This document shows positions 18,025 through 64,000 of a stretch of 64,000 nt of DNA, piece after piece. Under the pieces are notes generated by a model. That model did no database searches. It had not been told where the DNA came from and saw nothing but the letters and a program-made list of their open reading frames with translations. The number at the start of each line of letters is the position of its first letter. The stretch's first letter is position 1. A program made the position numbers and the translations under genes. Source of the DNA: a virus. The DNA lies in IMG/VR virus record IMGVR_UViG_3300009376_001085, positions 1 to 64,000 of that record; one strand, 5' to 3'.

Positions 18025-18684
18025 ATGAGCATAATAGTAGCATTAGATTATACTAATCCGTTAGAAGCACTAGAAATGGCCGCAAAGTTACGTGACCATG
18101 TCGACGGGTTTAAAATTAATCATGCGTTATGGAGCCAATCTGTGTATATTAAAGATTACACTGATAAAGAATTATTTATAGACTGCAAATTATGGGATAC
18201 ACCTAATACAATTAAAACTATAGTAGAAAAAATTATTGCCAAAGGTGCATCAATGACAACAATAAGTACCTTTAACAATCCCGAAGTATTTGATCTCCTT
18301 TCACAATATAATAACGATATTAGATTATTAGGTGTTACATCTTTAACATCGTGGTCATCTGTAGAAGAATTACAATTATATAAAGAAACTTCACATGATA
18401 TATGGAAAGAACATATAGGTAAAATAATACATAATTTTGATGGAATTGTATGTTCGGTTCCAGATTTGCATCATATTGATAGAATCGATCCTGATTATAA
18501 TTTAATTAGGGTTTGCCCAGGAATAAAATATGAAAAAACAGAACTTAAAGGACAATCAAAAACAGCAACACCAAGAGAAGCATACGAACTCGGTGCTGAT
18601 TACTTGGTTATTGGAAGATCTATTACTGAAGCGAGCGATCCAGTCGAGAAAGTAAAGGAGATATATGACAGTTTACATAGTTGA
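18025..18684 (+). CDS. pyrF: Orotidine 5'-phosphate decarboxylase
   Basis: A 219-residue TIM-barrel enzyme with the family signature FIDCKLWDTPNT (Asp53, Lys55, Asp58), N-terminal IIVALDY and C-terminal RVCPGIKYEKTE, ATPREAYELGADYLVIGRSI. It makes UMP from OMP, the last step of pyrimidine synthesis. Length and motifs match bacterial PyrF. In a phage it would boost UTP/CTP and dTTP precursors and fits with ThyX at 44250. It overlaps the next gene by 20 nt. Confidence 0.88.
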   Translation: MSIIVALDYTNPLEALEMAAKLRDHVDGFKINHALWSQSVYIKDYTDKELFIDCKLWDTPNTIKTIVEKIIAKGASMTTISTFNNPEVFDLLSQYNNDIRLLGVTSLTSWSSVEELQLYKETSHDIWKEHIGKIIHNFDGIVCSVPDLHHIDRIDPDYNLIRVCPGIKYEKTELKGQSKTATPREAYELGADYLVIGRSITEASDPVEKVKEIYDSLHS

Positions 18685-19777
18685 TTTAGAATCAGTTGAA
18701 TCTAGATATACATGTGAATGGAAATGGCATTTACCTGAACTAATAAAAGGATCTGTACCTATCGAAGGAGCAGACGACATACCTAAAGCAACTACCCCAG
18801 GTGCATTTTTAAACTTTGGTGGCACTAACATTTATAAAGCAAAACAAATAGAAACAATGGGTAGGATGTTCTGCGATGGTACAGTTAAAGCAGGAGATCA
18901 TTTTTTATTTACAGATGCTTGGCATCCAGGTATTATAACATTGAAGTATATGAGCGAACTGCTCCAAGTACCTGTAACAATTCATTCAATGTGGCATGCA
19001 GGATCGTATGATCCACATGATTTTTTAGGAAGGTTAATTAATGATAAGCAGTGGACTTTTGATTTTGAGCGGAGCATTTTTCATGCTTCAGATTATAACT
19101 ATTTTGCTACTAATTTTCATATTAAATTATTTGTAGAAACATTATTTAATTATACATTTACTGGAACATTTGAAGAATCAGCAGATGTGCCTAGTAACCA
19201 ATTCTTTCACGAAAAACTTAAAAGTAAAATAGTACGTACAGGTTGGCCAATGGAGTATTTAGAAGATGCTTCAAAGACAACATTATTTGATAACAATGTA
19301 CAACCGGAAAAAGAAAATTTAATAGTATTCCCACATAGAATAGCACCCGAAAAACAACCAGAGATATTTAGAGATTTAACAACGGCATTGCCTAAATACA
19401 AGTGGATAGTATGTCAAGATAAACAGTTGACAAAACCTGAGTATCATGCTATACTAAAGAGAGCAAAAATGGTCTTTAGTGCCAACTTACAAGAAACATT
19501 AGGTATTAGCCCATATGAAGGAGCATTAGTTGGGGCAATTCCATTGGTGCCAGATAGGCTTTCTTATAGTGAAATGTATGATTGGGAATTTAAATATCCA
19601 TCAGAATGGACTACAGATTGGGGCAATTATCAAAAACACAAAAAACAATTAATTGATGTAATCGTCCAAAGAATGGACAAATATAATGAGTTATATCCTA
19701 CAATAGTAGATGAAGCATATAAGTTATCACAAAACTTTTTTAGTTGCAAACCATTATTAGAAAAATTAAACACATGA
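18665..19777 (+). CDS. GT4-like glycosyltransferase
   Basis: A 370-residue protein whose second half looks like a GT-B fold donor domain: LIVFPHRIAPEKQPEIF, then AKMVFSANLQETLGISPYEG and ALVGAIPLVPDRLSYSEM, matching the E-x7-E region of GT4-type transferases. The first half has HSMWHAGSYDPHDF. It may glycosylate phage DNA bases, proteins or host surface sugars. It lies between pyrF and folE with overlaps on both sides, so a DNA-modification role is possible but not shown. Confidence 0.65.
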   Translation: MTVYIVDLESVESRYTCEWKWHLPELIKGSVPIEGADDIPKATTPGAFLNFGGTNIYKAKQIETMGRMFCDGTVKAGDHFLFTDAWHPGIITLKYMSELLQVPVTIHSMWHAGSYDPHDFLGRLINDKQWTFDFERSIFHASDYNYFATNFHIKLFVETLFNYTFTGTFEESADVPSNQFFHEKLKSKIVRTGWPMEYLEDASKTTLFDNNVQPEKENLIVFPHRIAPEKQPEIFRDLTTALPKYKWIVCQDKQLTKPEYHAILKRAKMVFSANLQETLGISPYEGALVGAIPLVPDRLSYSEMYDWEFKYPSEWTTDWGNYQKHKKQLIDVIVQRMDKYNELYPTIVDEAYKLSQNFFSCKPLLEKLNT

Positions 19778-20421
19778 TAAATTATGACGGAAAACGATGC
19801 AATGATAACATTAGTGATATAGTTACAGAAAAAGGTATTGCTAAAATAGAACGAAAAGTTGAAAAACGTTTTCAAAAGGTATTAGATGCATTGTTAATAG
19901 ATACAGAAAACGACCACAATACACAAGAAACCGCAAAACGTGTAGCAAAGATGTTAGTACGTGAAATCTTTGCTGGTAGATACGAACCTAAACCACGTAT
20001 AACTTCATTTCCAAATGCAAATCAATATGATCAACTTTATATTTCAGGACCGATTAAAATCCGTTCGACCTGTGCTCATCATTTTCAGCCTATTGTTGGT
20101 AATGCATGGATTGGTATATTCCCTGGTGAAAATGTTATTGGTTTATCAAAGTTTAATAGGCTAGTGGATTGGGTAGCAAGTAGACCACAAATACAAGAAG
20201 AAATGACAGTACAAATTGCAGATCTTATTGAAAAGGAAACACAAGCAAAAGGAGTTGCAGTAGTTATAAAAGCAGAACATATGTGTTTAACACATAGAGG
20301 TGTCAAAGAACACGAGAGTGATATGACTACATCTATTGTACGAGGATCTTTAAGAGAAGAAGAAACTCAAAAGCGTGAATTTTTTGCATTACTTAAAGGC
20401 ATGAAAGGATTTTCAGAATGA
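19774..20421 (+). CDS. folE: GTP cyclohydrolase I
   Basis: A 215-residue enzyme starting at the ATG that overlaps the glycosyltransferase stop (ATGA). Zinc and active-site residues are visible: Cys100 and His102/103 in IRSTCAHHFQPIVG, Cys171 in EHMCLTHRGVKE. It converts GTP to dihydroneopterin triphosphate, the entry to 7-deazaguanine and folate synthesis. With QueE, a QueD-like and a QueC-like protein plus DpdA in the window, preQ0 production for DNA modification is the likely purpose. Confidence 0.92.
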   Translation: MINYDGKRCNDNISDIVTEKGIAKIERKVEKRFQKVLDALLIDTENDHNTQETAKRVAKMLVREIFAGRYEPKPRITSFPNANQYDQLYISGPIKIRSTCAHHFQPIVGNAWIGIFPGENVIGLSKFNRLVDWVASRPQIQEEMTVQIADLIEKETQAKGVAVVIKAEHMCLTHRGVKEHESDMTTSIVRGSLREEETQKREFFALLKGMKGFSE

Positions 20422-20950: not shown

Positions 20951-21183
20951 TGCCTTGGAACCCAGAACATTATATGAAAAACAAAGTTAAGATGGAGGTT
21001 GGGTACCTACACTGGATAGATCCACCTAGTGGTTGGAAATATGGTTTTCCAAAAATTTTACCAAATAATATAACAAATACTCTAGAATGGTTAGTAGACA
21101 ATGGCTATCCTCAAGAAGAAATTGATAAGTTTGGTGACCAATTTGTATGCAGGCATTGGATAGAGGAGGAAGGAACGCAATGA
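20950..21183 (+). CDS. Small hypothetical protein, 77 residues
   Basis: ATG at 20950 shares a base with the previous stop and is preceded by GGGAG. Features WIDPPSGWKYGFPKIL and LEWLVDNGYPQEEID. No family recognised. Overlaps the next start by 4 nt (ATGA). Confidence 0.6.
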   Translation: MPWNPEHYMKNKVKMEVGYLHWIDPPSGWKYGFPKILPNNITNTLEWLVDNGYPQEEIDKFGDQFVCRHWIEEEGTQ

Positions 21184-21365
21184 CAGTAATAGATATTAAA
21201 AATTTAAACACCACAGAAATAAAACAAGTAAAAGAATGGTGTGAACAAGAATTACAATTTCGGGAAAATGTAGGCAAGGAAATAGAACGCCGAGCACAAA
21301 CAGATAATGGTATTCGAAATTATCCTGAAGGTTGTTTTGAATATTCAATTACACAAAAACCATAA
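21180..21365 (+). CDS. Small hypothetical protein, 61 residues
   Basis: Start chosen at ATG 21180, which overlaps the preceding stop; a non-ATG start at 21147 is less likely. The sequence is helical and charged (IKQVKEWCEQELQFRENVG). Its stop codon is the first base-paired part of the candidate RNA structure at 21363-21428. Confidence 0.55.
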   Translation: MTVIDIKNLNTTEIKQVKEWCEQELQFRENVGKEIERRAQTDNGIRNYPEGCFEYSITQKP

Positions 21366-21428
21366 AGAATAGAGGTGGCCCGGGGACTCCAGACAGGAGT
21401 TCTGGCTCCTGGTTCTTTACAGGTCACC
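21363..21428 (+). promoter_or_regulatory. Candidate structured leader RNA (H-type pseudoknot)
   Basis: A GC-rich island in the 79-nt gap before the phosphoribosyltransferase. Stem A pairs TAAAGAAT (21363-21370) with GTTCTTTA (21412-21419), ending in one G-T wobble. Stem B pairs GGTGGCC (21374-21380) with GGTCACC (21422-21428). The stems interleave, so together they make a pseudoknot. Between them CAGGAG/CTCCTG (21395-21400, 21407-21412) can form a hairpin, which competes at one base with stem A and with an alternative CCAGA/TCTGG hairpin. AAGGA, the ribosome site of the next gene, follows directly. It may be a riboswitch or translational operator; no known class recognised. Confidence 0.5.
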
Positions 21429-21444
21429 ACTTTAAGGAATATAA

Positions 21445-21963
21445 ATGAAAAAAATATATTATACATGGCAACAAATAGAATTTTTACTTCATGAAATTAT
21501 GCGGAGTATGAAAGATTGGCAACCTGATTATGTAGTAGGTATTGTTAGAGGAGGATGTTTCCCTGCAGGAATGTATAGTCATTATTCAGGTGTACCAATG
21601 TATACGTTAAAAGTACAATTAGCAGACGGAATAGGAGAACATACCGAAGATGATACAGAATGTAATGCATGGATGTCCGAAGATGCATATGATGGTAAAA
21701 ATATTCTTGTCTTTGATGATATTAACGATAGCGGATCTACTTTTAATTGGATTAAAAGGGATTGGCGACAAGGTAATTTACCAGCAGATCCTAAATGGCA
21801 AAATGATATGATATTTGGTAATAATGTTAGAACTGCATGTTTAATAGATAATGGACCGAGTGACTTTGATTGCGATTATTCGGGTACAACAATTAATAAA
21901 GTAGATGATCCTTGTTGGATTGTTTTTCCGTGGGAGGAATGGTGGAATCCGAACAGCAATTAA
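21445..21963 (+). CDS. Type I phosphoribosyltransferase
   Basis: A 172-residue protein with the PRPP-binding motif ILVFDDINDSGSTF (about residues 89-102) and an N-terminal VVGIVRGGCFPAGM loop, as in xanthine/hypoxanthine-guanine transferases. It would attach a ribose-5-phosphate to a nucleobase. It might salvage purines, or recycle 7-deazaguanine bases, which is speculation. It is preceded by the possible structured RNA and AAGGA. Confidence 0.8.
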   Translation: MKKIYYTWQQIEFLLHEIMRSMKDWQPDYVVGIVRGGCFPAGMYSHYSGVPMYTLKVQLADGIGEHTEDDTECNAWMSEDAYDGKNILVFDDINDSGSTFNWIKRDWRQGNLPADPKWQNDMIFGNNVRTACLIDNGPSDFDCDYSGTTINKVDDPCWIVFPWEEWWNPNSN

Positions 21964-22572: not shown

Positions 22573-22601
22573 TTGACAAAATGGAAAATAAAACGTATAA
22601 T
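22573..22601 (+). promoter_or_regulatory. Sigma70-type promoter overlapping a gene start
   Basis: TTGACA at 22573-22578 and TATAAT at 22596-22601, spacer 17 nt. The -10 lies inside the AbrB-like ORF beginning at 22581, so a transcript from it (start near 22608) would miss that ATG but carry queE and the FEN nuclease. Confidence 0.6.
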
Positions 22602-22763
22602 ATAAATGTAAGTGATCTTCAAGTAGAAGATGACGGTAAAACTGTAGTGTTACCTCTAGATGCACAAAAGGCATTAGGTTTAAAAGAAAATGATAAAGTT
22701 ATCCTTAAAAAAATAGCAAGAGGTGATAAAGCAATATTTGAAATAATAACAGATGAAAATTAA
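22581..22763 (+). CDS. AbrB/MazE-like small protein
   Basis: A 60-residue protein with VVLPLDAQKALGLKENDKVILKK, which resembles the AbrB/SpoVT swapped-hairpin domain (LPKEVRxALGLxxGDxV). Such domains bind DNA as regulators or antitoxins. No ribosome site is seen, so it depends on upstream translation, and an internal promoter overlaps its start. It overlaps queE by 11 nt. Confidence 0.5.
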   Translation: MENKTYNINVSDLQVEDDGKTVVLPLDAQKALGLKENDKVILKKIARGDKAIFEIITDEN

Positions 22764-23592
22764 ATATTCAGAAGCATTTTATAGTATACAAGGAGAAGGT
22801 CGTTGGGTAGGAACTCCTAGTGTCTTTTTGCGTATGTTTGGATGCAATTTTGAATGTAGAGGATTTGGTCAAGGTAAAGATAAATCTAAATGGATACCAA
22901 AGGATCAAATGCCACATGTTACAGATCCAAATAGACTTAATTATAAATCATATCATGATCTTCCTGTTCCAGAAATAGGATGTGATACAAGTGCATCTTG
23001 GTCACATTTATATAAACACATTGCAACTAACGAGGAAAACTCTGTAGTTGCGAAAAAATTATTAAATTTAACACCACATAAAAACTGGAATGGTATACAT
23101 TTAATTCTTACTGGTGGTGAACCTATGCTTTGGCAAAAAACGTTACCTGATTTATTATCACAAGAAGAATTTGCAGGATTGGAACATATTACAATTGAAA
23201 CAAATGCGACACAAGAATTAACTCCTTTCTTTAAAAATTTTTTAAATGCACGTAAAATACATATAACTTGGTCGTGTAGTCCTAAATTATGGATTAGTGG
23301 TGAGGATTGGAAAAATGCAATAAAGCCTGAGGTTGTACAAGAATATAATAGAGTACGAAATAGCGAGCTGTATTTAAAATTTGTAGTACAAGATAAAGAA
23401 GATATAAAAGAAGTAAAAACAGCAGAACATGCCTATGGATTAAATGTTCCGGTATATTTAATGCCATGTGGCGGTACAGTTGAAGGGCTAGAACTTACAG
23501 AAAAAGATGTTGCTGAACTTGCGTTAGAATATGGATATAGATTTAGTCCTAGATTACATGTACACTTGTTCGGAAACGCATGGGGAACATAA
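22753..23592 (+). CDS. queE: 7-carboxy-7-deazaguanine synthase (radical SAM)
   Basis: A 279-residue protein with N-terminal SEAFYSIQGEGRWVGTPSVF, typical of QueE, then FGCNFECRGFG and, after an insertion of about 45 residues, IGCDTSASW. So the third iron-sulfur Cys comes late, giving a Cx3C...C pattern as in several phage and Burkholderia-type QueE. ILTGGEPMLW is the SAM-binding GGE motif. It converts carboxytetrahydropterin to 7-carboxy-7-deazaguanine. The C-terminus RLHVHLFGNAWGT is also QueE-like. Works with FolE and the QueD-like protein. Confidence 0.88.
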   Translation: MKIKYSEAFYSIQGEGRWVGTPSVFLRMFGCNFECRGFGQGKDKSKWIPKDQMPHVTDPNRLNYKSYHDLPVPEIGCDTSASWSHLYKHIATNEENSVVAKKLLNLTPHKNWNGIHLILTGGEPMLWQKTLPDLLSQEEFAGLEHITIETNATQELTPFFKNFLNARKIHITWSCSPKLWISGEDWKNAIKPEVVQEYNRVRNSELYLKFVVQDKEDIKEVKTAEHAYGLNVPVYLMPCGGTVEGLELTEKDVAELALEYGYRFSPRLHVHLFGNAWGT

Positions 23593-25676: not shown

Positions 25677-25907
25677 ATGAGTAATTTTCGTGAAATATTT
25701 GAGGAGAGCCAGCAGGCCTTGGAAGATCTGCATGTTCGAATAGGCGTCGAATCTAAAAAATTAAAAGATAATCTTAAAGAACAACTTGAATTAAAATTAG
25801 AAGCCGACAAAATATACGAAACCAAGTGGGTTTTTTATCATACCATTTTAGGAATAGAGTTACTCGTAGTAATAATAATTCTTATAGGAATATGGTGGAA
25901 ATTATGA
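25677..25907 (+). CDS. Small membrane protein with coiled coil
   Basis: A 76-residue protein: charged helix (SKKLKDNLKEQLELKLEAD) followed by one C-terminal membrane helix (IELLVVIIILIGIWW). It overlaps the HtrA-like gene by 4 nt. It may be a membrane anchor or spanin-like part; nothing further can be said. Confidence 0.6.
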   Translation: MSNFREIFEESQQALEDLHVRIGVESKKLKDNLKEQLELKLEADKIYETKWVFYHTILGIELLVVIIILIGIWWKL

Positions 25908-27025
25908 AAAAATTTCTAATTCTAATGATAGCAAATCTATTGATCGCTTCCGTTGCTTTTACTAGTTCTCTTAATAAAGAAATAGTTGATAAAGTAAAAG
26001 GGGCAACCGTTTTTATTTTAATGCAAAGTGGTAATAATGCTTCTGTTCTCGGTCCTAATGGAAGGGGTACATGTAGTGGTTTTGTAATAAATGAAAAAGG
26101 GTACATTGTAACAAATTATCATTGTGTCCACAGAACAACTAAATTAAAATTAGCATTTTATGATAAAGACGATTGGAATATTTATGAAGTAAAAATCATA
26201 GGTACGGATCCTCTTGCAGATATAGCCGTTATTCATATACCTGAACGTAAAAAACCATTACCTTATTTAGAATGGTCCGAAGATGAACCTTGGGATGGTA
26301 TGGATGTTTTTGCAATAGGTCATCCATTCGGTATGGCATGGTCTATTACAAAAGGTATTGTTAGTAATAACGAAAGAATTGTAAGATCTCCGTATGTACG
26401 ATACATTCAAACAGATACTACAATTAATGTTGGTAATTCAGGAGGGCCTTTAGTTAATACAGCAGGCAACGTAGTAGGAGTCAATTCAATGATAGTTAAT
26501 CCTGCACAAACTAAAGTTCATGCCGGAGTTGCATTAGCATTGCGAAATGATGATGCTAAAGAAATTGTGAATGTTATTAAAGAAGGTAAAGAATTCGTGC
26601 GGCCTATTGTGGGTGTAAGATTAGTAGATCTACATCCATTAAATAGAGCTGATATAGAAAATTTACCAGATGTAAAAGAATCTGGAATAACAGTTCCTAA
26701 TACTTTTGGTTGTATGATTGCACCATCGGATCCTATGCCAGAAGGGTTAGAAAAATTTGATACTATCATTAGTGTTAATGGTAAGGCTGTTAATAGACAG
26801 GGCGATCTAACAGATGAAATAAGAACTAAAAATGTAGGTGATACTGTTGATCTTGTAGTAATACGAGATCGTGTTTATAAAAATGTTACAGTAACCTTGA
26901 AAAAATTAGAAATAACCGGAGCAGATTTGTATGACAAACAAGGAAACCCAAGAACAGCTCCTCTGCCACCAAAAACAGAGGAACCAAAAGAGGAACCCAA
27001 AACAGATAATGAAACAGTTAAGTAA
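25904..27025 (+). CDS. HtrA/DegP-like secreted serine protease
   Basis: A 373-residue protein. The first about 20 residues are a signal peptide (KKFLILMIANLLIASVAF). The trypsin-like triad is His73 (VTNYHCVH), Asp106 (DPLADIAVIH) and Ser179 (VGNSGGPLV). Residues about 245-330 resemble a PDZ domain (FDTIISVNGKAVNRQGDL), and a Pro/Glu tail ends the protein. Family members degrade or refold periplasmic proteins. In the phage it may process envelope proteins before lysis or support virion proteins. Start taken at the ATG overlapping the previous stop. Confidence 0.85.
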   Translation: MKKFLILMIANLLIASVAFTSSLNKEIVDKVKGATVFILMQSGNNASVLGPNGRGTCSGFVINEKGYIVTNYHCVHRTTKLKLAFYDKDDWNIYEVKIIGTDPLADIAVIHIPERKKPLPYLEWSEDEPWDGMDVFAIGHPFGMAWSITKGIVSNNERIVRSPYVRYIQTDTTINVGNSGGPLVNTAGNVVGVNSMIVNPAQTKVHAGVALALRNDDAKEIVNVIKEGKEFVRPIVGVRLVDLHPLNRADIENLPDVKESGITVPNTFGCMIAPSDPMPEGLEKFDTIISVNGKAVNRQGDLTDEIRTKNVGDTVDLVVIRDRVYKNVTVTLKKLEITGADLYDKQGNPRTAPLPPKTEEPKEEPKTDNETVK

Positions 27026-56035: not shown

Positions 56036-57061
56036 TTATTCTCTCTCATTTATTTTTTCTAAAAAATATTTTGCTATCCAATTATGTGATAAATGGCCAG
56101 GATGTCCTAGTTCTCGTCCAACATCATTAGAATCCATAGTATCAAAATTGCCTTCGTCAAACCATTTATTAAAAGGTATTTCTTTACTATCTGAATATAG
56201 ATATACAAACTTCGTTACTCCATTTTTATTACATAGATATCGAATTGCATCAATATTTTTCTTAGCATTAGTTTTTGATTGATATGCATTTGAAAGTTCG
56301 TATATTAGATAATATTTAAAATATTCACGTATTTCTCTTGTCTGACCATGACTAACAGTACCAAGGTTTACAAAAGAAAACATTCTTGATTTATTTGCAC
56401 AACTACTTGTGTCTAATCCTAACTTTTGTTGTTCAAAGTAATTATTAACTTTATGATCTATATCTACAAACGAACGTCTACCTACGTTTGGTCCTAGCAT
56501 ACATACATATTTGGGTTTTAAAATAGGTAACCAATATGATGCATATGTATAACATGCATCGTGTCCGGCACCTGGTAATCCAAAATTCCAACAATTTAAG
56601 TCTAATTCTTTACTTATTTTAACCGGCCATATATCATTATAATGCATTCCAGTTCCATATGTTAAACTGCATCCTAAGAACATAATACCGTCACCTTCGT
56701 ATGGATCCGATGTTCGAAATCCGTGGTTATTATAATAATAAGTTAATGCTTCGGGTGGTACAACTTCAGAACTATTAACCCATACCTCATTTTTATTCTC
56801 TTTGTCATATTTTGGGTCAATGTCTTTTATAAAATCATAATTAGATAGCCATCCGGCGTTTTCTAGTATAGATTTTGCTTTTGCATTTTTTAAGTGATCG
56901 TTCCAAGTATCTCTGTTATCGCCACAGTCCCACAAATAAGTTCTATTTGTTTTCCAACTATATTCATGAAAGTATGGTATTTCTTCATTGTAATTAAATG
57001 CTCCGTCTTTCCACCAGTCAACTACTTTATCAAAATCTACTTTATTGGCGTTCATTGTCAT
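56036..57061 (-). CDS. SGNH hydrolase-like protein
   Basis: A 341-residue protein with YYNNHGFRTSDPYEG, then IMFLGCSLTYGTG (Ser132 candidate), NFGLPGAGHDACY, MLGPNVGRRSF and C-terminal ELGHPGHLSHNWIA as the Asp/His-block equivalent. It is a paralogue of the gene at 43333. Deacylation of a cluster product or a glycan is possible. It overlaps the upstream twitch gene by 4 nt. Confidence 0.72.
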   Translation of the reverse strand: MTMNANKVDFDKVVDWWKDGAFNYNEEIPYFHEYSWKTNRTYLWDCGDNRDTWNDHLKNAKAKSILENAGWLSNYDFIKDIDPKYDKENKNEVWVNSSEVVPPEALTYYYNNHGFRTSDPYEGDGIMFLGCSLTYGTGMHYNDIWPVKISKELDLNCWNFGLPGAGHDACYTYASYWLPILKPKYVCMLGPNVGRRSFVDIDHKVNNYFEQQKLGLDTSSCANKSRMFSFVNLGTVSHGQTREIREYFKYYLIYELSNAYQSKTNAKKNIDAIRYLCNKNGVTKFVYLYSDSKEIPFNKWFDEGNFDTMDSNDVGRELGHPGHLSHNWIAKYFLEKINERE

Positions 57062-58347
57062 ATATACCTTTCAATTCGAGGATGAAGATAATCTAAAACA
57101 TTTGTATTTCTAATTTTATCTTGCATAATTGTGTGTTTTTTAAAATGAAAGCGTAACTCATCAATACTATTAGGTTTAATAGTAGGATATGATTCTTCAG
57201 GAAATATTTCCCATATTGGTTCAGTTAAACAAGTCTGTACAGGCATTAATGTTTTTTCGATAAAATATTCATCCTTTATGTTACATTCTTTTATTAGATC
57301 ATTAATTTCTTTTACTATGAACTTTTTATCATCGTCAAATAAAATAGCAGGATGGAAATGAGGTGGTTCTTCACATGCTTGAATATAAGGGGGTGCAATA
57401 TTATCACCTTGTTTATATAAATTATAAAAGAATTTACCCCAGGTTTTAACATCAAAAATATTATACATTTGCAATACTAAATTTATAGATAAATGTACAA
57501 GATTTTCCATTTCACGTAATGAATATACATTATTAATAACTTGATCCCATTTTGCATTTGTTCGTATATAATCATATGTTTTTCCGGTTCCGTCTAAACT
57601 TGCACAAACATTCAACTTTTTAAATTGTTTAAATAATTGCCAATGTTTATTAAAATTTGTACAATTAGACGTAATATTTAAATTTAAATCAGTATTACCT
57701 TCCTCTATTAATTTTTCCAAAAATGATATTGTATCGGGATCAACTGTAGGCTCGCCTCCTAAAATATTCAACCTTTTAATAAGTTTAAAATCAATAGTAG
57801 AAATAAATTTAATTATATCCATATTAGATGTTTCCTTACGCCATCGATCGCCTCGATAATATTGATGAATTTCTGGATTGGCTGTTACTTCTTTTAATAT
57901 TTCTGTACTATTTCCTGGATCACACATACGACATTTTAAGTTACAAACATTACCTGGTCTAATATCTAAGGCCAATGGTTGTTTAAATTCGTTACCATAA
58001 TTTATATCATCTGTTACAGTACCTCCATCACGTTCTATATATTCTAATCTGTCACTGCTCCATCCTTTTCGTTCTCTATCTCCACATACATGACATTCGA
58101 TAGGTTCTTCGCCTTTTAATAATTTTTTCCGTATTTCTAAAAGTTGTTTATCTTTATAAAAAAATTCTTTAAGACGATTACTAGCCGGTATGCCAGATAC
58201 TTTTTCACTGAATGCTGATCGTGTTTTTCGACCCTCACAACACATTTTTATAGAATCCTTGCCAGCATTAATATAGATATGCATAAATGGTGCCGGGCAA
58301 TAAAAATCTTTACGTATTTTTATTTTTTCATGTAACTCTGATCTCAT
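57058..58347 (-). CDS. Twitch-type radical SAM protein (c)
   Basis: A 429-residue protein. The N-terminus carries FYCPAPFMHIYINAG and IKMCCEG, then ECHVCGD at 84-90, before the core CNLKCRMC (Cys135, 139, 142) and ILGGEPTVDP. The N-terminal Cys groups are shared with the three genes upstream in the operon. This layout is that of 'twitch domain' radical SAM proteins. One to two extra clusters are likely. Substrate unknown. Overlaps both neighbours by 4 nt. Confidence 0.8.
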   Translation of the reverse strand: MRSELHEKIKIRKDFYCPAPFMHIYINAGKDSIKMCCEGRKTRSAFSEKVSGIPASNRLKEFFYKDKQLLEIRKKLLKGEEPIECHVCGDRERKGWSSDRLEYIERDGGTVTDDINYGNEFKQPLALDIRPGNVCNLKCRMCDPGNSTEILKEVTANPEIHQYYRGDRWRKETSNMDIIKFISTIDFKLIKRLNILGGEPTVDPDTISFLEKLIEEGNTDLNLNITSNCTNFNKHWQLFKQFKKLNVCASLDGTGKTYDYIRTNAKWDQVINNVYSLREMENLVHLSINLVLQMYNIFDVKTWGKFFYNLYKQGDNIAPPYIQACEEPPHFHPAILFDDDKKFIVKEINDLIKECNIKDEYFIEKTLMPVQTCLTEPIWEIFPEESYPTIKPNSIDELRFHFKKHTIMQDKIRNTNVLDYLHPRIERYI

Positions 58348-59720
58348 TCTAAATATCTTTTTAATTGTGGCGTAATCTCTAAAACATTTGTTTTTCGTAT
58401 TTTGTCTGCTACTAATGTGTGACGAACAAATTGTTCTTTATTATATTGAATATTAGGTATCATCCAACGATCTGCTCTTTTTTCTATATTTTCTGGTATG
58501 TTATCTGTAAATTTAGATTCTTTTCTATAATGACTTACATCTTTATTAAGATCTGAATATACTTGTTGAAAACATTCTTGTTCTTTATCATTTATGTTAT
58601 AGTCATATATTACTCTATCTATTTCGCTTCTAATAAAATCTTTATGATCTTCATCTAGCCAATGTACATTTAAATGCATTGGTTCAACTATCGGATGTAG
58701 TGCTGGTGGATCTATAAATTCAAACCGTCGACTTTGTTCTATCATCCATGCAACATGATAATAGATATGAAATACGTTATATACATTTATAACACTATTG
58801 AATCCTATACTATAAATATTAGGTAACTCACATGCTTTTAAAAAGTTTGCGTGAACTTTTTTCCATTCACACCCTGTTCTACAATATTCAAATACTTTTC
58901 CTATTCCGTCAACACTAAATCTTAATTGTAATCTTTTAAATTGAGAAAGTAATTCAACTGCTTGTTTAGGCCAAACTGTGCCATTAGTAATTATGTGTAA
59001 TTTTATATTTTTAGCATCGCCATGGTCTACTAATTGCTTCCATATTTTAAAACAATTAGGATCTATTAACGTTTCGCCTCCAGACATTTTCAACCATCGA
59101 ACATCTGTTAAATCATAATTTTCATATAACCTAGAATTATCTTGGTCCCAGTCAATAGATTCTGCCATTCTCATTTGCCATTTATTATCAGTATACATAT
59201 CCCAATATGTGCCTTCTAATAAATCATGATTATCTAGTACTTCTTTTTCTATTTTACTACTCCAGATGCTACAACAAGATCGACATTTAGCATTACATAG
59301 TTTACCAGGACGTAAGTCTAAATCAATTGGATGGCCATATTTATTACCTGTTTTAATATTAAGCCCCATATCTTCTACTGTTAAATCTGCATCAGAATAC
59401 TTCTCTATAAATTCTACTCTTGTACTTTCTCTATCAACTCCGATTTCTTCATAGTGTTTACAATAATCGCACGGACGAGATCCATTTTCGAGAACCGGCC
59501 ATTCGTTATTTAAAAATGATTTTCGTATGCTTTTAATTTTATCACCAGTCCATAATCGATGTTGTTGGGCCGCAACTGAATCGCCTTTTTTAATTGCAGG
59601 AGTATCTATTCTATCTATAATATCACTCATACAACATAATTTAAATGCACTATTCCCCATACTTGTGTACGTATGTAAAAACGGAGCAGGACAAAATACT
59701 TTTTTTAACTGTTCTCTCAT
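58344..59720 (-). CDS. Twitch-type radical SAM protein (d)
   Basis: A 458-residue protein with FCPAPFLHTYTSMGNSAF, KLCCMSD, RPCDYCKHYEE, then core CNAKCRSC (Cys142, 146, 149; a fourth Cys follows at 150) and KMSGGETLIDP, where GGE is followed by Thr. Same organisation as the neighbouring gene, so an old duplication. Substrate unknown. Confidence 0.8.
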   Translation of the reverse strand: MREQLKKVFCPAPFLHTYTSMGNSAFKLCCMSDIIDRIDTPAIKKGDSVAAQQHRLWTGDKIKSIRKSFLNNEWPVLENGSRPCDYCKHYEEIGVDRESTRVEFIEKYSDADLTVEDMGLNIKTGNKYGHPIDLDLRPGKLCNAKCRSCCSIWSSKIEKEVLDNHDLLEGTYWDMYTDNKWQMRMAESIDWDQDNSRLYENYDLTDVRWLKMSGGETLIDPNCFKIWKQLVDHGDAKNIKLHIITNGTVWPKQAVELLSQFKRLQLRFSVDGIGKVFEYCRTGCEWKKVHANFLKACELPNIYSIGFNSVINVYNVFHIYYHVAWMIEQSRRFEFIDPPALHPIVEPMHLNVHWLDEDHKDFIRSEIDRVIYDYNINDKEQECFQQVYSDLNKDVSHYRKESKFTDNIPENIEKRADRWMIPNIQYNKEQFVRHTLVADKIRKTNVLEITPQLKRYLE

Positions 59721-62158
59721 AATTCAGCTTTTCGTTTTGCTTTCAATGCCTCACGAATTCCTATTTTAATATATTTTTCATCATCTTTAAAATGTAAACC
59801 GGAAGGTTGCCACCATTTATCTTTATCATGAACCCATGGAAATTTTTTAGGTGCTAATGCCACATGCATACATTTTGTTTCGAATAAATCATATTCTTCA
59901 CATAATTCTTGATGCCACTTCAAATATTTATTTGGAATATAATCACAACTAAAATTTTTCATTTGATTAATTCCAAGAAAAGCCATTGAAAGAGTTAAAT
60001 GATTATAATCATTTGTAATAGCAATAGATCCATCTGTAAAATTACTATATCTTATTCCTATTCTTGAATGACCGAGTCCTAAACTTTTACTAAGACTAAA
60101 ACAAACTTGAGTAATTGCAGGATGATTAAAATCAAAATCAATATCATAACAAGTACCAAACCATGCACAATCAATTAACACTGGTATATTTTTTTCATGA
60201 CAAGTATCTAATGTTTGTTTATAAAAAGGTACTTTATTACCATTTCCACAAAAAGGCATGCTAATAATCACCCAATCATTTTCATCAAGTGGTTCTTCGT
60301 AACCATCATAAATGTTGTCTATAAATTTCCAATTATCAACAATTCTTCTATGATAGTGATATTCACCTCTATAAAATCTTAGACGTCTATCTTTATATCT
60401 ATAGTATGCTTCATCAAAACTTTGAGTAGTACCAATTGTAATATCTCGCTCACTAAATCTATCTAAACCTCTTACAGTATTTAATTTAGTTGCACATATC
60501 CATTCATGGATAGTATCTAAAAATTCTTGCTTGCATTCCCAAAAACCAGGAGCTTCAAATTCTTTTCTCCATTCCATATCTCTTAGAGAATATTGAAACT
60601 TGGGGTCAAATACAGCATGATGTTTATCTTGAAAGTAATTGCCTTTACCCATCATAGAAATTATTTTATTAGTTTTGAAATAATTTTTTGAGTCTAAATG
60701 TTTAATTATAGGTTCTGCAATTTCTGGTAATATTTCTTCAAATTTTTGATCTCTATGTTTATCAAGAGCAATTGTTCTATCCATAAATTCCTCAATATAT
60801 TTTGATTCGTCTTTAGCCCACATATAACTAGTAATTGAATTTAAACATTTTTGGGTAACATCAATAACATATTCCGGTCCTTTAATAGCTTCATAGTGTC
60901 TCCATACTTTCTTTTTATGTACTAAATTAGGAAATATGTTTTTTAAAAAGTTATCATATTTTTGTTGTACTAACTCTTTTGCCTCTAAAGGTAATGCTCT
61001 GATATTATAATATACGGGATTGTGTAAATGATGCATACTAAAAAATATATGTTTACCATTTATATTGAATCTCTTAAAATTTTGAGCTATTTCCCATTCA
61101 ATTAATTCTGGAATATATAATACATTAAAAACTTGTACGGTTGTAGTAAACCATCCATTTATATTATCAGAGTTATCTATTTTTCTTAATGCTTGCTCAA
61201 TTTTTTGAAAATTGCTAGGATATCTTATATACTCATTTATATGTTTTATACCATCCACACTTCCGCCAATCTCGACTAACCTAAAGTGTTTCCATAAGTC
61301 AAAACATTTATCAGGTATATTAACTAGGTTTGAATTATAATCAAGAGAAATATGCTTGGCTCTATCAGTTTCAATTAACTTTTCAAGTAAATCATATTGA
61401 GCTTTAGCTAATGTTGGTTCACCACCACTTATATGAATCATTTCAATATTGGGTGCATTTTCAACCAATTCATTAAAGATATCAGTTCTTTCATGCCAAC
61501 TGTATGGATCAAATCCATCAATAACTACATTATTTTTATTATCAAGTTTTAAATTAACATATTTGTCATTAGCACCATCATATCTAAACTTTTTCCGTCC
61601 AAAAGCATGATACCAATCCTCCTTCCATGGACTACTTTCTGTTGGTCCACACATTCTACATTTTAAATTACATAAATTTCCTAATCTTACATCTGTATGT
61701 AAAATAGGTGAATTAGGTTTTAAAGAACCATCAATATCAGTAAATTTATATGCATCTTTAATAGTAAAAGATTTTAGAATTTGTTTTTCAACTAATGGTG
61801 CTTCCCAAGAAGGACATTTTAAATTACCAGTATTTTTATTACGCTCAGCTCTCATTTCATAACGACGTCTATCAACTACCCTTCTACTATTTTGACCTGC
61901 ATCTTCTTCTTCGTTACATCGCTGACACACAGGATGTCTTTCTCCCTTTAACATAGATAATCTAACATCTTTTAAAAGAGAACAATTCATTGCTTCACTA
62001 ATAGATGCATTATCAGCAGTCATTATTTCATTATTATTTTTTCTGCATACACCTCTTGTTTCTCTATGGGTATTTGCCTGAACACACATACGATATTGAC
62101 CATTATTATTAATACTGAAACTAGTCCATGGTACAGGACAATAACTTTTATTTTCCAT
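59717..62158 (-). CDS. Radical SAM / PLP aminotransferase-like fusion protein (e)
   Basis: An 813-residue protein. Residues 1-170 have YCPVPWTSFSINNNG, YRMCVQAN, HPVCQRCNEEE; core CNLKCRMC is Cys163, 167, 170; IHISGGEPTL is at 241-250. The radical SAM part runs to about 480. From about 560 the C-terminal part resembles fold-type I aminotransferases: VLIDCAWFG (Asp663) and VCFSLSKSLGLGHSRIG with Lys691 as likely PLP Lys. The stand-alone protein at 45760 matches this end. Two chemistries in one chain suggest a substrate handed from radical to PLP step. It overlaps both neighbours. Confidence 0.72.
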   Translation of the reverse strand: MENKSYCPVPWTSFSINNNGQYRMCVQANTHRETRGVCRKNNNEIMTADNASISEAMNCSLLKDVRLSMLKGERHPVCQRCNEEEDAGQNSRRVVDRRRYEMRAERNKNTGNLKCPSWEAPLVEKQILKSFTIKDAYKFTDIDGSLKPNSPILHTDVRLGNLCNLKCRMCGPTESSPWKEDWYHAFGRKKFRYDGANDKYVNLKLDNKNNVVIDGFDPYSWHERTDIFNELVENAPNIEMIHISGGEPTLAKAQYDLLEKLIETDRAKHISLDYNSNLVNIPDKCFDLWKHFRLVEIGGSVDGIKHINEYIRYPSNFQKIEQALRKIDNSDNINGWFTTTVQVFNVLYIPELIEWEIAQNFKRFNINGKHIFFSMHHLHNPVYYNIRALPLEAKELVQQKYDNFLKNIFPNLVHKKKVWRHYEAIKGPEYVIDVTQKCLNSITSYMWAKDESKYIEEFMDRTIALDKHRDQKFEEILPEIAEPIIKHLDSKNYFKTNKIISMMGKGNYFQDKHHAVFDPKFQYSLRDMEWRKEFEAPGFWECKQEFLDTIHEWICATKLNTVRGLDRFSERDITIGTTQSFDEAYYRYKDRRLRFYRGEYHYHRRIVDNWKFIDNIYDGYEEPLDENDWVIISMPFCGNGNKVPFYKQTLDTCHEKNIPVLIDCAWFGTCYDIDFDFNHPAITQVCFSLSKSLGLGHSRIGIRYSNFTDGSIAITNDYNHLTLSMAFLGINQMKNFSCDYIPNKYLKWHQELCEEYDLFETKCMHVALAPKKFPWVHDKDKWWQPSGLHFKDDEKYIKIGIREALKAKRKAEL

Positions 62159-64000
62159 AGTTATATAACTCTTCTAGCTCAGGAAATATTTCACAAAAAT
62201 TTAATTTGCGAACTACTTCTAACTTTCTAATATATTCGTTTGTTAATGGCAATAAATGCGATAGGTCTTCTGACCACATAAAATCTATTAATGATTGAAG
62301 TTTTCTTATACCAGTTGGTTTTTCTAATGCGTCAGTATAATGCTCGAAATTTTGTTCTAACCATTTATACAAATCAGTATACTCGTCGGATGCTTTTTCT
62401 TTTAATTCTTTTGGCAAACATTTTACACTTAAAAATTTAGGATTGTATAAAAAATGAATTCCTATCATGCCACCATGAACAGGCCACTTGTTTATTTCTA
62501 TTAATTCGGGTTGAGATAGTTTCCATTTTATTAACTCTGGTATATGAATAATATTGAAAATACTAGCGGTAGTATCTATATTTAATCTGACATTTGGATT
62601 CTCTTTTGAAAAATTATTATATTTTTTTAAGTTTTCAAGCGTTAAATCAAATTCACTCGGATATCGTAACCATTTATGTTTTAGATTTATTCCGTCAATA
62701 CTTGCGGCAACTTCGACAAAATTTAATCTTTTAAGAAGATCCAATAACTCATTATCGCATACCTGAATATTAGTATTAAATCTTAAATTCATTTTTGGAG
62801 ATGCATATTCGATAAATTCTCTAAATTCATTAATTATAGTTGGTTCGCCCCCTAATATATAAGCATCATTCATAAACTTCTGAGTGGCTAACTCGTCCCA
62901 TGTTACTTTGTTTTTATACCAATCATATCCACCTCTTTGCTCCTTACCTTTAGACCATTCCATTTGTTTGTATAATTTATGGCTTATATTGTCAGAATTT
63001 ATAATTGTTTTCCAATCTTTAACCCAATAACTACTGTCATCGGGGTTACATGTTGCACATGCTAAATTACATTTATTCCCTAACTTTAAATCAACATAAT
63101 GTATATTTGCAGGAGCAGATCCATCAGGTGTTGTATTCCAAACAATAGAATCATAATTTAATTTTGAAAACCATTTTTTATTTTCCCAATTTCTTTTACT
63201 ATTATATCCAACTTCTTCTTCTTTATAACATTTTTGGCATTCTCGAGGTTTCTCACCTTTTAACATTGCCAATCTAACATCTCGCATATATTTGGTATTC
63301 CACTGTTCCTTCCAATTATCGTGTTTTAAATTAACCAATTCGCCGTTGTCTTTTCTGTTACAACCAACCATAGGATGATCTTCATCGCTTCCACTATTAG
63401 CAGTACAACATAATTGCATATTGCCTGTTGTTCGTGTACTAAGATGAATCCATGGAAGTATGCAAAATCCGTTGTTTTCTTTTTCCCAAGGTGCTACCGG
63501 AGCATTATCTAGATATGCAATCATTTCTGGATCTAAATGATTGTGGTAGTCTTGTTTTCTATTTTTGTCAAAAAATTCTGTAAATTTTTTGAGTTCTTTA
63601 TGTTTCAGATCTCTAATCGGTAAATTACTATCAACGTTTTCTACAAAATTATTGAAGTATTCTATTCTTGGTTCTATTCCCGGAATACCTTTAACATCTT
63701 TTACAAATTTTTTATATGCTTTTTTTAGCATAGATTTAGGTAAGAATAATGGATTTAGTTCGCTTTGTTCAGGAATCATTTGAAAATCAATACATATATC
63801 TATTAATTCAGGATTAATAAAACCACAATATTTTTCATAAAAATTACTTGCCCATCGATAAATTTCTCCTAAATTAAAAATATTATATGGCTGAGCAACA
63901 ATTGAAAAACCTATAAGTGCTTTTGGAAGGATCTCATTTTCTTGGGCCAAGAAAAAAAGATTATTATTTTGACAAAATTCAAAAAGGTTTGTAATACTTT
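62148..64000 (-). CDS. Twitch-type radical SAM protein (f), tandem and truncated at window edge
   Basis: The frame continues without a stop to the right edge, so the gene is partial. Counting from the TTG at 63950, core CNLACATC is residues 294-301, with FCILPWIHLSTRTTGN, QLCCTAN and RECQKCYKEE before it, and ILGGEPTI after it. The upstream stretch, including IVAQPYNIFNLGEIYRW, resembles the segment after the core in the sister proteins (VQVFNVLYIPELIEW). So a first radical SAM unit probably precedes this one. The 3' end overlaps the fusion gene by 11 nt. Confidence 0.72.
   Translation of the reverse strand, partial: SITNLFEFCQNNNLFFLAQENEILPKALIGFSIVAQPYNIFNLGEIYRWASNFYEKYCGFINPELIDICIDFQMIPEQSELNPLFLPKSMLKKAYKKFVKDVKGIPGIEPRIEYFNNFVENVDSNLPIRDLKHKELKKFTEFFDKNRKQDYHNHLDPEMIAYLDNAPVAPWEKENNGFCILPWIHLSTRTTGNMQLCCTANSGSDEDHPMVGCNRKDNGELVNLKHDNWKEQWNTKYMRDVRLAMLKGEKPRECQKCYKEEEVGYNSKRNWENKKWFSKLNYDSIVWNTTPDGSAPANIHYVDLKLGNKCNLACATCNPDDSSYWVKDWKTIINSDNISHKLYKQMEWSKGKEQRGGYDWYKNKVTWDELATQKFMNDAYILGGEPTIINEFREFIEYASPKMNLRFNTNIQVCDNELLDLLKRLNFVEVAASIDGINLKHKWLRYPSEFDLTLENLKKYNNFSKENPNVRLNIDTTASIFNIIHIPELIKWKLSQPELIEINKWPVHGGMIGIHFLYNPKFLSVKCLPKELKEKASDEYTDLYKWLEQNFEHYTDALEKPTGIRKLQSLIDFMWSEDLSHLLPLTNEYIRKLEVVRKLNFCEIFPELEELYNYGK

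Follow-up and report, generated by a model that had tools for sequence, protein, structure and literature searches.

A predicted RNA hairpin family at gene boundaries of AT-rich phage contigs

The promoter-early stem-loop (PeSL) is a composite of a terminator and an early promoter. According to a report on T4-type phages, PeSL elements mediate gene shuffling (PMC4503421). Other structured phage RNAs act on translation, and the operator of T4 gp43 is a hairpin with a conserved loop sequence (PMC3014915). The element described here resembles PeSLs in that it is a short intergenic stem-loop of T4-related phages which is located at sites of gene-block exchange. To our knowledge, the conserved complementarity between its bulge and its loop has not been described for PeSLs.

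Genomic setting of the element

The element was found in a stretch of 64,000 nt (hereafter, the window), which is part of an AT-rich phage record of 99 kb and has a GC content of 29–36%. The DNA polymerase encoded in the window (887 aa) has its closest cultured match in Agrobacterium phage Atu_ph07 (47%), and the same protein showed 43–45% to further very large phages; we take all of these phages to be T4-related. On the plus strand, the element (21374–21428) sits between a small ORF of 61 aa (21180–21365), whose stop lies 8 nt before the outer stem, and a phosphoribosyltransferase (PRT) gene (21445–21963, Pfam PF00156), whose ATG at 21445 is preceded by the ribosome site AAGGA (21434–21438). 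The surrounding region is composed of small ORFs and metabolic genes (folE, pyrF, and HIT).

Several other features of the window were observed. Genes for orotidine-phosphate decarboxylase and GTP cyclohydrolase I (18025–20421) are in the same block, and a queE-like radical SAM gene, which gave a weak Fer4_12 match only, is located at 22753–23592. Together they hint at nucleotide or deazaguanine metabolism. A perfect match to a sigma-70-type promoter (TTGACA, 17 nt, TATAAT) at 22573–22601 overlaps the start of a 60-aa ORF at 22581. An HtrA/Deg-like protease gene (25826–27025) is also present in contigs L244 and L249 and, more distantly, in L076, where it occupies +678 to +1811 counted from the element of that contig. 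On the minus strand, three adjacent large ORFs (57058–62158) match the radical SAM family phrog_14086, an uncommon finding in phages. Beside them, a fourth large ORF (62148–63950) had no match.

The first-pass annotation had proposed a candidate pseudoknot RNA before the PRT gene, with stems of a kind typical of small riboswitches. We examined 62 loci containing PRT relatives, and the element precedes the gene only in L001 and L002, which are near-identical strains of the window. The closest syntenic relative with a PRT gene is L249 (the contig of L004), whose PRT is 69% identical. Synteny extends over ~10 kb with the same order of 61-aa ORF, PRT, HIT, and so on, most proteins being 55–83% identical, and the element is absent between the 61-aa ORF and PRT. 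On the other hand, the syntenic contig L244 (the contig of L067) has kept the element after its 61-aa ORF. An unrelated 108-aa ORF replaces PRT in L244/L066–L068, and in L244 the whole block from PRT through HIT is gone; the element was thus retained while the gene was replaced in three related contigs (L066–L068). Homologues of the 61-aa ORF in L066–L068 (77%) are followed by the element, and those in L004/L249 and L003 are not. Since L249 has the gene without the element and L244 has the element without the gene, and since unrelated genes lie downstream of family members, a riboswitch linked to PRT was rejected; relatives that keep the gene and lack the stems are the very outcome which the first-pass annotation had named as refuting its proposal.

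Conserved fold and family members

In the window copy, the whole element forms a long hairpin with a 5′ bulge. The outer stem is made by GGUGGCC (21374–21380) and GGUCACC (21422–21428), with one G-U pair, and corresponds to the 7-bp stem of the first-pass annotation. Within it, GGGGAC (21382–21387) and GUUCUU (21412–21417) form inner stem A, which is followed by the 5′ bulge CCAGA (21389–21393; CCAGR in the family) and by hairpin H1 (21394–21411), in which CAGGAG (21394–21399) and CUCCUG (21406–21411) make 6 bp around the loop UUCUGG. The bulge is complementary to this apical loop, so that an alternative 5-bp pairing of CCAGA with UCUGG (21401–21405) can be drawn. An additional 8-bp stem pairs UAAAGAAU (21363–21370), which begins on the stop codon of the upstream ORF, with GUUCUUUA (21412–21419), including one U-G pair. 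All stems listed in the first-pass annotation, including the interleaved 8-bp and 7-bp stems, were found between 21363 and 21428, and its internal 6-bp hairpin and 5-bp alternative recur in every family member.

The folding energy of the 91-nt stretch is −29.3 kcal/mol (z = −2.9), and only 1 of 200 shuffles was as good. The stretch is therefore structured beyond chance, mainly via the hairpin and not demonstrably via a pseudoknot. The family fold is less stable in the window copy (−22.8 kcal/mol) than in its relatives, and the minimum-energy fold of this copy is an alternative one (−24.6 kcal/mol); the other representatives form the bulged hairpin of the family when folded alone. Strain L001 differs from the window at a single position in the 130 nt upstream of PRT, a C to T change at 21381, by which mismatched bases become paired and the family fold becomes the one of lowest energy (−28.7 kcal/mol).

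The pseudoknot itself was rejected. Interleaving is weak evidence because 217 of 3000 dinucleotide shuffles of the 66 nt (7%) also contain interleaved stems of at least 7 and at least 8 bp. The nearest homologous element, that of L066, keeps the 7-bp stem fully paired, whereas the 8-bp stem is lost: UAACGAUU occupies the position of its 5′ strand and has no partner, so that the two stems are not jointly preserved by compensatory change as in an H-type pseudoknot. Moreover, the 8-bp stem and stem A compete because both use the 3′ strand at 21412–21417, and it is stem A which is conserved.

The L066 element was identified through the protein homology of its neighbour. A pattern was then built from the window and L066 elements and run on viral contigs, with the columns GGGG, CCAG, GG.GU, and CUGGC fixed and the covarying columns left free. 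In addition to the window and L066–L068, where the element occupies the same syntenic place, four more sequence groups contain homologous elements, so that the family comprises at least five groups, all from AT-rich phage contigs; the number of independent groups known is about five, and the contigs are fragmentary. The element follows an asparagine-synthase-like gene in L072, L077, L079, L082, L086, and L090, and precedes a clamp-loader gene (PF16790) in L080 and L085, the closest cultured match of which is in Pelagibacter phage HTVC008M (54%). Further members found by the scan are L075 and L076. Upstream of the element in L076 are a fragment of a transporter gene (SbmA/BacA-like by eye) and then a small ORF that by eye resembles the SelW/Rdx type; L075 also has a transporter, with a different small ORF ahead of the same element.

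Model R1 gave 42–60 bits for all members and no more than 25 bits for the chance hits tested. The remaining pattern hits are in GC-rich contigs and look like chance, and wider patterns added no member. Searches of whole records revealed one copy of the element per record, and in 50 whole records only the known members were recovered, plus one marginal match of 12 bits. A scan of genome contigs for bacterial copies produced 14 hits, all of them GC-rich (60–72% GC), which we read as chance. Among cultured phages, blastn with five queries gave no credible match; hits in Syn5 and mycobacteriophages were inspected and judged to be chance. The whole records of HTVC008M, Melnitz, Atu_ph07, and S-SCSM2R contain no copy. 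The first-pass annotation had recognized no known class, which agrees with our searches of Rfam 15: there was no match at or near the cut-off of any family, neither for the whole window at the gathering cut-off nor for the elements of the window, L066, and L072 at E up to 10, where scores were far below cut-off only. The hairpin family is thus previously uncatalogued. ARAGORN found no tRNA in the window. A tRNA or tRNA remnant was also considered and rejected: the resemblance of CCAGG/CCTGG to T-arms is a pattern match only, and the loop of the alternative hairpin is YRGGNGU as compared with TTCRANY for a T-loop.

Members were aligned by hand and with MAFFT. The family fold consists of a stem of ~6–15 bp, a 5′ bulge CCAGR of 5–6 nt, and a 6-bp hairpin capped by the loop UYCUGG; in the window and the L075 group, the bulge is longer by one U. 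Stem A (consensus GGGGNYC with its 3′ arm) and H1 (consensus YRGGNG-UYCUGG-CNCYYR) are formed in all members. The outer stem varies between groups in both sequence and length, from none or 2 pairs in L076/L075 through 3–5 in L072, L080, and their relatives to 7 in the window and 8 in L066. In seven representatives, all 88 pair cells of stem A and H1 are standard (65 Watson-Crick, 23 G-U, and 0 A-C). Because G-U cells number 23 as against 0 A-C cells, the structured strand is the sense strand, the same as that of the genes.

Compensatory changes were observed in H1, stem A, and the outer stem, and it is again the 8-bp stem, unpaired in L066, that failed this comparison. In H1, all 42 pair cells are standard and two-sided changes occur at 3 of the 6 pairs; none of 500 shuffles reached its covariation score. 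In stem A, both partners have changed at 2 pairs (C-G/U-A and A-U/G-C), and equally full pairing was seen in 75 of 5000 shuffles. The invariance of GGGG, CCAG, GG.GU, and CUGGC outside L066 proves nothing because the scan pattern fixed these columns. The outer stem of L066 (GGUAGUC/GGCUAUC) is fully paired with both arms changed relative to the window, and this is the least biased evidence since L066 was found through its protein neighbour rather than through the pattern. Judged from these sequence comparisons, the elements make up a family of conserved RNA hairpins on the sense strand, which occurs at gene boundaries and is tied to no single neighbour.

Every group retains complementarity between the bulge CCAGR and the loop YCUGG. 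At the free position, R in the bulge matches Y in the loop as A-U or G-C in each representative; CCAG and CUGG themselves had been fixed by the search pattern in all but L066. By our own reasoning, a pseudoknot of the bulge with the apical loop is rejected on geometry: the two segments are joined by no linker, no nucleotides are available to span the groove, and thus they cannot pair in cis while H1 is formed. Since their pairing in cis excludes H1, it would represent a folding intermediate, a second state, or an intermolecular contact.

Gene ends, exchange junctions, and possible function

With the exception of L075, every representative has a stop codon 0–20 nt ahead of the element; in L075, a 71-aa ORF runs through it, the one case in which it overlaps the 3′ end of the upstream gene. 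Downstream genes differ between phages. The signals behind the stem also differ. A U-run follows the stem in the L072 group, whose next gene is more than 100 nt away and beyond the U-run. No U-run was found after the complete stem in the window, L066, L075, or L076, where the stem ends shortly before the next ribosome site and leaves no room for a promoter; in the window, the stem is followed by ACUUUAAGG. A simple terminator scan of the window flagged a partial inner hairpin with GUUCUUUA, which is not conserved as such. A sigma-70-like promoter was detected soon after the element in L080/L085 (12 of 12 matching positions) and in L072/L086 (10 of 12). For the window copy, which has neither a U-run after the full stem nor a promoter, neither termination nor a PeSL-type cassette is supported.

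Similarity between otherwise different contigs is limited to the element in L075/L076 (53 nt) and in the L072 group/L080 (~43 nt), with 88–93% identity in these islands. L080 and L085 diverge 19 nt upstream of the element, L072, L077, L079, and L086 diverge or jump ~50 nt past its start, and the similarity of the window and L066 ends 24 nt into it. Such islands and break points indicate, at the level of sequence comparison, that the element marks junctions at which neighbouring genes have been exchanged.

We infer that the element serves as operon punctuation at gene-cassette junctions of T4-related, AT-rich phages, and give this reading a probability of about 0.5. The hairpin would end the upstream message or stabilize its 3′ end. 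In the L072 group, with the U-run behind it, it may be an intrinsic terminator; in the window, L066, L075, and L076, it might instead keep the upstream and downstream messages apart, as an internal barrier or a site of processing. The short sequence, being shared between phages, could also provide homology for the exchange of whole gene cassettes. However, a plain punctuation hairpin would need no conserved bulge and loop, and the CCAGR/YCUGG complementarity is left over by the punctuation reading.

A rival reading is a protein-binding operator, in which a phage or host protein recognizes the CCAGR bulge and the UYCUGG loop and controls translation of the downstream gene. A sequence-conserved bulge plus loop is typical for protein-binding hairpins, T4-type phages are known to use hairpin operators (PMC3014915), and the stem ends close to a ribosome site in four representatives. 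We consider this possible but unlikely, given that the downstream genes are unrelated, that the next gene in the L072 group is distant, and that no candidate protein is linked to the element. A trans-acting small RNA, released by processing or termination and indifferent to its position in the genome, is less probable again. It would fit the single copy per record in all members and the non-homologous places of the element in related phages, since it follows the 61-aa ORF in the window and L244 and lies elsewhere in L076 even though L076 carries homologues of both the 61-aa ORF and HtrA; yet many records are fragments, the element is only ~40–60 nt long, and the window has no dedicated promoter for it. 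More speculatively, such a single-copy phage RNA might act as an oligomer or in trans, through pairing between the CCAGR bulge on one molecule and the YCUGG loop on a second, and move between genome places independently of its neighbours; we regard this as a long shot.

The remaining explanations are weaker than these. The sequence islands, unrelated flanks, and sharp break points would suit a recombination or integration site acting as DNA rather than RNA, but the excess of G-U over A-C cells favours one RNA strand, compensatory changes are present, and no recombinase is among the listed adjacent genes, which makes such a site quite improbable. Very little credence is left for the metabolite riboswitch before PRT, in spite of the stems being as described and the alternative hairpin pairing being preserved across the family: PRT relatives without the element, unrelated genes behind it, and the unconserved 8-bp stem all argue against it. 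A short coding sequence is the least credible reading. A similar peptide (G-x-Q-x-G-V-L-A) can be read in one frame in all groups, and the L075 ORF spans the element; nevertheless it was rejected because in L080 and L085 stops closely precede the peptide and no start intervenes, in L066 the stretch from the last in-frame stop to the element contains no ATG, GTG, or TTG, and the pairing arms covary.

Comparison with known phage elements

The findings add to phage biology a covariation-supported RNA family in T4-related phage contigs and a concrete marker of gene-cassette swap sites in such phages. If the hairpin both punctuates transcription and supplies homology for exchange, gene regulation would be tied to genome shuffling beyond the enteric T4 phages.

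Like the T4 gp43 and gp32 translational operators, the element is a phage mRNA leader structure near a ribosome site. These operators precede the gene of the binding protein itself, whereas the genes downstream of the element vary (PMC3014915). The put antitermination RNA of HK022 is likewise phage-encoded, of similar length, and built of bulged stems, but it comprises two stem-loops located downstream of early promoters (PMC9378689), while the element has one hairpin and lies at gene ends. As in intrinsic terminators, a stable GC-rich hairpin comes behind a stop codon, and the L072 group has the U-run too; the family shows far more sequence conservation than a terminator needs, and four representatives lack the U-run.

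PeSL is the closest known thing. The location at break points of gene exchange is shared (L080/L085, the L072 group, L075/L076, and window/L066), and the promoter behind the element in L080/L085 and L072/L086 adds to the likeness. With respect to the terminator part, the hairpin is present throughout and the U-run in the L072 group only. An early promoter directly after the stem-loop is not a feature of the family as a whole, and the copies of the window, L066, L075, and L076 have neither U-run nor promoter. Because the defining promoter is missing in these four representatives, we do not file the element as a PeSL.
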